Assembly: GCA_026702745.1 (NCBI GenBank)
Contig: JAPPBT010000006.1
Coordinates: 1 to 36,262, forward strand
Direction of reading: 5' to 3'
Source of the DNA: Gemmatimonadota bacterium
GTDB lineage: Bacteria; JAAXHH01
Length of the DNA stretch: 36,262 nucleotides
The stretch's first letter is position 1. Each line of letters begins with the position of its first letter. The notes below the pieces were generated by a model. The model worked only from the letters and a program-made list of their open reading frames with translations. It did no database searches and was not told where the DNA came from. The position numbers and the translations under genes are program-made. Positions 8,150 through 28,280 of this stretch are shown here, piece by piece.

Positions 8150-8203
8150 GTTTACCTGGCGGTTTTTGGCAGGCATGTGCGCGGGCTGAGTGTTTACCAC
8201 GGG

Positions 8204-8232
8204 TTGTGTATTTTGCGGGTGAAGGGTATACC
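8204..8232 (+). promoter_or_regulatory. Candidate weak promoter for the second LLM gene
   Basis: TTGTGT (8204-8209), a 17-base spacer and TATACC (8227-8232). The -10 overlaps a perfect GGTATACC palindrome at 8225-8232, and the tandem site at 8259-8280 lies just downstream of the expected start point. Matches to consensus are moderate and the call rests on spacing and context only. Confidence 0.25.
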
Positions 8233-8280
8233 GCGAGCGAAGCATTGACCGGCGGCTAGTGTATACAATGTAGATACAAC
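8225..8280. promoter_or_regulatory. GTATAC-type operator cluster upstream of LLM copy 2
   Basis: Two palindromes centred on GTATAC, GGTATACC (8225-8232) and TGTATACA (8260-8267), lie 35 bases apart. The second is part of a tandem element, with ATACAA at 8263-8268 repeated at 8274-8279, a spacing of 11 bases or one helical turn. Nineteen of 22 bases of this element recur at 28031-28052. Palindromes with a GTATAC core are known for FCD-type GntR regulators such as UxuR/ExuR; no regulator gene is present in the window, so the family assignment is inference. Confidence 0.5.
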
Positions 8281-28030: not shown

Positions 28031-28052
28031 GTGTATACAATCTGGATACATC
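28031..28052. promoter_or_regulatory. GTATAC tandem site, second copy
   Basis: TGTATACA (28032-28039) followed by GGATACAT, with ATACAA/ATACAT repeated 11 bases apart (28035 and 28046). It matches the element at 8259-8280 at 19 of 22 positions. Both copies are in gaps upstream of genes. Probably the binding site of a GntR/FCD-type regulator encoded elsewhere. Confidence 0.5.
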
Positions 28053-28129: not shown

Positions 28130-28158
28130 TTGACACCAAACCAACCCGCCCATACTAT
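28130..28158 (+). promoter_or_regulatory. Sigma-70-type promoter for the porin gene
   Basis: A consensus -35 TTGACA (28130-28135), a 17-base spacer and TACTAT (28153-28158) as -10. The start point would be near 28165, leaving a leader of about 115 bases before the porin ATG at 28281. The surrounding sequence is AT-richer than the rest of the window. Confidence 0.5.
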
Positions 28159-28280
28159 CCCTTTTTCAAGACCCGCCATCGATTTCTGGATCGCCTGCCG
28201 GCGTATCCTGGCGTATTCCGGCGAAACCGGCTCACTTTCGCGAAGCCCGGGAGAACCGATACACTGGAGGGATTGAGCCC

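Follow-up and report, generated by a model that had tools for sequence, protein, structure and literature searches.

A tandem operator recurring in a Latescibacterota genus and its predicted regulator, a MazEF-like pair that may have lost toxicity

Introduction

Two near-identical short elements precede unrelated genes in the window (the whole stretch of DNA analysed here, 36,262 nucleotides). Do they mark a regulon, and which protein would read them? A sequence-only reading of the window had proposed that they join a luciferase-like monooxygenase gene (LLM2) with divergent porin and aminotransferase genes, and had pointed to a GntR/FCD regulator. The element leads instead to a toxin-antitoxin family, and thereby to a long-standing question, namely whether toxin-antitoxin systems on chromosomes have any role other than their own maintenance.

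Results

The 22-mers at 8259-8280 (GTGTATACAATGTAGATACAAC) and 28031-28052 (GTGTATACAATCTGGATACATC) are identical at 19 of 22 positions, exactly as first reported, and neither overlaps a called gene, so that the gene calls bear out their non-coding location. The earlier judgement that such a recurrence is unlikely to arise by chance was upheld as well, since dinucleotide shuffles of the window gave 0 expected matches of the 22-mer pair. LLM2 is the nearest gene downstream of the first operator, with a start codon 30 bp past it (34 bp when measured from the 19-mer). This operator is kept in four other species (G006, G008, G002 and G010) despite diverged, indel-rich flanks. Around the second operator, the candidate targets are the aminotransferase and the porin (Table 1), whose starts lie 198 bp and 232 bp away, respectively, and the equivalent place is occupied in at least eight further species. 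By eye, a TTGACA-17-TACTAT promoter-like pair also precedes the porin, at about 28132-28160.

The palindrome noticed upstream of the first operator is present as GGTATACC (8225-8232). In this region (window 8180-8280, L192, L193 and L194), several species carry an array of GTGTATACC upstream of LLM2; in G006, G008 and G002 the stretch matching the palindrome holds several such units, with a spacing of 17-18 bp that differs from the 11-bp phase of the operator.

Table 1. Features of the window, predicted regulator loci, contigs with the linked antitoxin and conserved candidate targets.
Feature	Location	Strand	Basis or remark
Extra unit-like palindrome GGTATACC, upstream of first operator	8225..8232	none	
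Two-unit operator GTGTATAC-AAT-GTAGATAC-AAC	8259..8280	+	Sequence; genome and genus scans
LLM2, luciferase-like monooxygenase, 354 aa	8311..9375	+	Pfam PF00296 2e-33; gene call
Exported aminotransferase class I/II, 420 aa	26571..27833	-	Pfam PF00155 5e-47
Two-unit operator GTGTATAC-AAT-CTGGATAC-ATC, divergent intergenic region	28031..28052	+	Sequence
Porin-like protein, 383 aa	28281..29432	+	Pfam PF16930 4e-9
mazEF-like operon	G000 C48, L233:1489-2093		MazE family search
PrlF-like AbrB antitoxin, downstream of GIY-YIG gene	L235, L236, L237, L238		PIN-like toxin in G007
MazE-linked contigs	L158, L160, L161, L164, L166, L167, L171, L172, L174, L175, L176		Exact GTRTATACAATGTAGATAC
Conserved target: aminotransferase/porin			Orthologous site
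Conserved target: GIY-YIG nuclease/M20 peptidase			Orthologous site
Conserved target: PhyH dioxygenase			Orthologous site
Conserved targets: two short-chain dehydrogenases			Orthologous sites
Conserved target: sodium:solute symporter			Orthologous site
Conserved target: HisI-like protein			Orthologous site
Conserved target: TPR protein			Orthologous site
Conserved target: 674-aa unknown			Orthologous site

The element is made of two 8-bp GTAKATAC units placed 11 bp apart, which together form an imperfect 19-bp palindrome. When the spacing was left free between 0 and 30 bp, a 3-bp gap, corresponding to an 11-bp period, was by far the commonest. Of the 11-base repeat of ATACA described earlier, the period thus stands, and the repeated unit has to be replaced by the 8-mer. 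Among the 18 doubly asymmetric sites, the units point in the same direction in 16 and are opposed in 2, many of these sites being orthologous and hence not independent. Some promoters (c10, c88 and c209) carry three or four units. A strict palindrome was rejected as a description of the site: although the 19-mer has some palindromic character, most of the doubly asymmetric sites are direct repeats. A hairpin or RNA-level element was also discarded, as pairing of GTAGATAC with GTAGATAC would leave A.G mismatches and the element faces genes in either orientation.

The units contain TATACT- or TACAAT-like hexamers, often at plausible -10 positions, and could on this account be A+T-rich core-promoter boxes served by no dedicated regulator; the operator of M. 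tuberculosis MazE6, which overlaps a TANNNT -10 element (PMC9477884), offers a precedent for such an overlap. However, the doubled 19-bp pattern in 11-bp phase, which is conserved within diverged flanks that hold no conserved -35, has a specificity well beyond that of a -10 box, and the promoter-like pair of the porin is an ordinary one that lies apart from the site. We regard a pure core-promoter explanation as very unlikely.

The element is not limited to two copies, as had been supposed. The genome to which the window belongs (G000; 3.88 Mb, 102 contigs) holds a third site that is almost identical. Ten exact symmetric matches to two GTAKATAC units at the 11-bp period were counted there, and, when up to 3 mismatches were allowed, about 35 places, among which some of the weaker ones will have arisen by chance. 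With up to 2 mismatches, the 19-bp form was found at 10-18 places in each of the 12 genomes of the genus, and the reversed control of this form gave 0 matches in the same 12 genomes. Among the other 47 genomes searched, we observed two weak matches only, one in the sister genus (G013) and one in G056. The element is nearly absent outside the Latescibacterota genus.

Genome-wide statistics were drawn from pattern searches and from about 271 kb of G000 sequence chosen around sites. In this sequence, 14 of the 21 sites with at most one mismatch are intergenic, compared to 14.4% expected (p = 7e-8). The coding share behind this expectation (85.6% of the 271 kb called coding) is only an estimate for the genome, because the loci were picked for holding sites. 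Most sites are followed by a start codon at a distance of 5-110 bp, typically 5-56 bp, the start codons being approximate because the genes come from a self-trained caller. Strong sites also occur, in some cases, inside genes or between convergent genes. A perfect two-unit site (L076:4219-4237) is located between convergent genes with no gene start nearby, and is found in other genus members as well. Two sites that lie 85 and 69 nt into a coding sequence (L078:4005-4023 and L070:4247-4265, the latter in a CDP-alcohol phosphatidyltransferase gene), use rare codons and are identical in five species; they are possibly intragenic operators. Three other within-gene groups were set aside as probable coding coincidences, c1 and c29 since their DNA varies between species and c93 since only three species were compared.

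Orthologous sites precede equivalent genes in two to five of the five species compared, and many orthologues have kept them (Table 1). At the promoter of the short-chain dehydrogenase c46, the site forms a conserved block amid indels in 6 of 7 aligned species and has been lost in G004. The sites are thus neither as common inside genes as between them nor unconserved at orthologous promoters, the two outcomes that the sequence-only reading had named as speaking against a regulon. What it had foreseen of a regulon is consistent with the genus-wide occurrence, the intergenic enrichment and the conserved promoters; the small set of LLM2 and porin/aminotransferase has to give way to about 20 predicted target promoters of mixed function, whose genes show no evident common role. 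The site precedes LLM2 in five species (G000, G006, G008, G002 and G010), precedes the middle LLM paralogue in G004 and G009, and is absent at the LLM genes of G001, G003, G005 and G007. Since the LLM2 site is this patchy, the regulon turns over between species.

A scan of GTDB for the exact 19-mer GTRTATACAATGTAGATAC matched 22 contigs, where a uniform-base estimate gives about 7 by chance. Four belong to the genus or resemble it, namely L162, L163 and L169 (Latescibacterota) and L168. The last of these (JAPOZT010000021.1) is labelled Gemmatimonadetes, and the flank of its site is nearly identical to that of L163; the label is probably a taxonomic error. In 11 of the 18 remaining contigs, the start codon of a MazE of the KWGNS type lies only 7-36 bp from the site, and in several of these 11 MazF comes next. 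These contigs span Nomurabacteria, Chloroflexi/Anaerolineae, Oscillospiraceae, Deltaproteobacteria, Burkholderiaceae, Sphaerochaetaceae, Fermentibacteraceae and others, with the reservation that L164 and L176, which are identical over the stretch shown, may represent the same sequence assembled twice. Another of the 18, L170, ends at the site. In two related Aliiruegeria species, the exact 19-mer (L157:5789-5807 and L178:3181-3199) lies 10-20 bp upstream of a small gene beside a ParA-like gene; by eye, the product of the small gene resembles a ribbon-helix-helix protein and not MazE.

The same arrangement can be recognised in E. coli K-12, where the region upstream of mazEF contains GTATCTACAATGTAGATTGATATATACTGTATCTAC, with matching units and an AAT linker; this region is the alternating-palindrome operator described for mazEF (PMC4803016). 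Closer to the genus, the sister genus represented by G013 has a single site, directly before an intact canonical mazEF, and in G012, from another genus of the same family, we found 0 sites and a MazE family search returned nothing comparable. The distance of 5-56 bp between site and start in the genus also resembles the 7-36 bp seen before mazE elsewhere. Taken together, the best reading of these sequences is that the element is the operator of a MazE-type antitoxin (AbrB/MazE swapped-hairpin fold). The correlation across phyla is a good guide to the protein family that binds; within the genus, MazE is assigned over other AbrB-type proteins by elimination.

Conventional regulators were weighed against this linkage. 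HutC-type regulators of the GntR family bind the consensus GTNTANAC. The unit GTRTATAC fits GTNTANAC, and metabolic genes and transporters are among the targets; both points speak for a repressor of a conventional kind, such as one of the GntR family (FCD or HutC). Yet the single match to the GntR family model in G000 (L181) lies on an atypical contig and its promoter holds no site, the annotated target genes yielded no transcription factor, and the operators that precede MazE in other phyla would be left unexplained. The GntR/FCD regulator proposed earlier is on these grounds highly improbable. In L181 (G000 C44), the GntR gene stands beside a TonB-receptor-like gene and has a low coding score; the contig may be a contaminant or of foreign origin. 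A response regulator of the OmpR/PhoB type would account for head-to-tail repeats of 11 bp and for the co-orientation of 16 of 18 asymmetric pairs, but neither of the two OmpR proteins of response-regulator size in the genome has a site upstream, a near-palindromic 8-mer is atypical of the family, and here too the association with MazE across phyla finds no explanation; we give this possibility hardly any credence. Overall, GntR, ribbon-helix-helix (PF01402) and OmpR family searches of the genome yielded no member with a convincing upstream site, and neither the target genes nor their annotated neighbours revealed a regulator.

MazE family searches of four of the 12 genus genomes found a syntenic mazEF-like pair in each, G000 (L233), G001 (L232), G005 (L234) and G007 (L239), flanked in all four by a conserved 125-aa gene and a dehydrogenase. 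The MazE protein matches PF04014 (MazE_antitoxin; 5e-9 over 44 residues) and the MazE structures 7d2n, 1mvf and 1ub4, and its partner matches PF02452 (PemK_toxin; 9e-17) and the MazF structure 7d28 (8e-24). The DNA-reading part of MazE is preserved: KWGNS-LALRIPK is kept and the motif KWGNSLALRIPK is present in all genus copies, with retention of the Trp, Asn and Arg that correspond to the operator contacts W9/N11/R16 of E. coli MazE (PMC4803016). The C-terminal tail is shortened and ends in ISKRNLHGRISIGSHG, with loss of the acidic residues and the final Trp, a tail retained in most MazEs of other phyla.

In the MazF homologue, GKGTYLPSGRPA or GKGSNLTPGRPA stands in place of G-EQ-G-RP. The position of Glu24, a Glu in E. 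coli and in all seven other MazFs aligned, is Tyr in G000, G001 and G005 and Asn in G007, while Arg29-Pro30 is retained (RPA/RPAI). When MazF loses this residue, which is E24 in the E. coli protein and E20 in another member of the family, cleavage ceases completely or almost completely (PMC8634880). Both the toxin and the neutralising tail are thus predicted to be impaired in the genus. Pairwise dN/dS values of mazE and mazF range from 0.04 to 0.34, the G007 comparisons being near synonymous saturation, and both genes are under purifying selection. Upstream of the genus mazE, GTnnnnAC-like units at -41, -30 and -19 follow the 11-bp phase, and one good unit is located at about -64; the phased units are degenerate and weaker than many target sites.

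Another antitoxin of the AbrB type might own the operator and leave MazE uninvolved. The strongest site, of three units, stands in the promoter of the GIY-YIG gene, and the PrlF-like gene listed in Table 1 adjoins it just downstream of that gene in 4 of 4 genomes examined, in an operon-like arrangement that would fit autoregulation. Nevertheless, its DNA-binding strand (SKGQTTLPK or similar) belongs to a subtype other than the KWGNS-type MazEs that own the operator elsewhere, its reading frame is less conserved than mazE in G000, and its partner in G007 is a PIN toxin, with which it could simply form a resident toxin-antitoxin pair. Ownership by the PrlF-like protein seems unlikely to us.

Discussion

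From these sequences we infer, with a probability of about 0.7, that a disarmed MazEF pair now acts as a multi-promoter regulator in this genus; DNA binding, regulation and loss of toxicity are all part of this inference. Several observations weigh against it: the phased units before the genus mazE are degenerate, the strongest site precedes a GIY-YIG gene with another AbrB-type antitoxin gene behind it, the targets show no common function, and some strong sites are intragenic or separate convergent genes. A single, vertically kept mazEF-like operon would have ceased to be a toxin-antitoxin module and become a transcription regulator. Its MazE would, as a dimer, read the 8-bp GTAKATAC units, of which two or more adjoin at a distance of one helical turn; binding would probably be strengthened by dimers on neighbouring units and by the MazF homologue. 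The pair is probably a repressor rather than an activator, and its occupancy near a promoter or leader would repress about 20 promoters besides its own, including those of LLM2 and of the divergent aminotransferase and porin. By analogy with E. coli, proteolysis of MazE may serve as the signal, which is a guess. We also lean, with somewhat less assurance, towards a genus-wide conversion of a chromosomal, vertically inherited mazEF, comprising the loss of the Glu and of the tail, continued purifying selection and the spread of the operator to about 20 promoters.

Compared to E. coli MazEF, the genus system shares the operator plan (units GTATCTAC-AAT-GTAGAT in E. coli), the Trp, Asn and Arg contacts and a mazF gene next to mazE. 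It differs in that E. coli MazEF is described at its own operator, whereas the genus operator precedes about 20 other promoters, and in that E. coli MazF is an active RNase, unlike a homologue that has no Glu24. MtvTA, from the P. aeruginosa plasmid pPAD8, has a non-toxic MazF-like partner that also carries no Glu24 (Ala in MtvT), and its complex binds the promoters of unrelated genes (PMC11826091). Restoring Glu at the Ala position alone did not make MtvT toxic (PMC11826091), so that this one residue need not explain the loss of toxicity entirely. MtvTA is plasmid-borne, reads the motif TAACATTGTTA, has few targets and was demonstrated experimentally (PMC11826091), whereas the genus pair is chromosomal, genus-wide and predicted from sequence, with an operator of the MazE type in 11-bp phase before about 20 promoters that are its predicted targets. 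The E. coli antitoxin MqsA also has its operator before other genes, e.g., rpoS and csgD (reviewed in PMC4803016), but it belongs to another protein family, with an active toxin and few targets.

Antitoxins acting on other promoters (MqsA) and an inactive, plasmid-borne MazEF-like regulator (MtvTA) are thus already known. In the open-access part of the literature, we found neither a MazE regulon nor a motif of Latescibacterota that matches directly. If the proposed reading is true, the new element is a chromosomal, genus-wide case in which a large set of promoters shares the ancestral type of operator. A toxin apparently disarmed, with the DNA-binding half and its operator kept and multiplied, would amount to a natural experiment in the origin of a regulator. 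Its steps could be followed through twelve genomes that gain and lose sites promoter by promoter, with sister genera that still show what the genus would have started from, either a canonical mazEF and its one site or neither of the two. The operator consensus that precedes MazE across phyla could also be used for predicting MazE targets elsewhere. Separately, on contig C101 of G000 (L094, 52500-60500), three genes of 800 codons each stand in tandem and seem to stem from a recent duplication.
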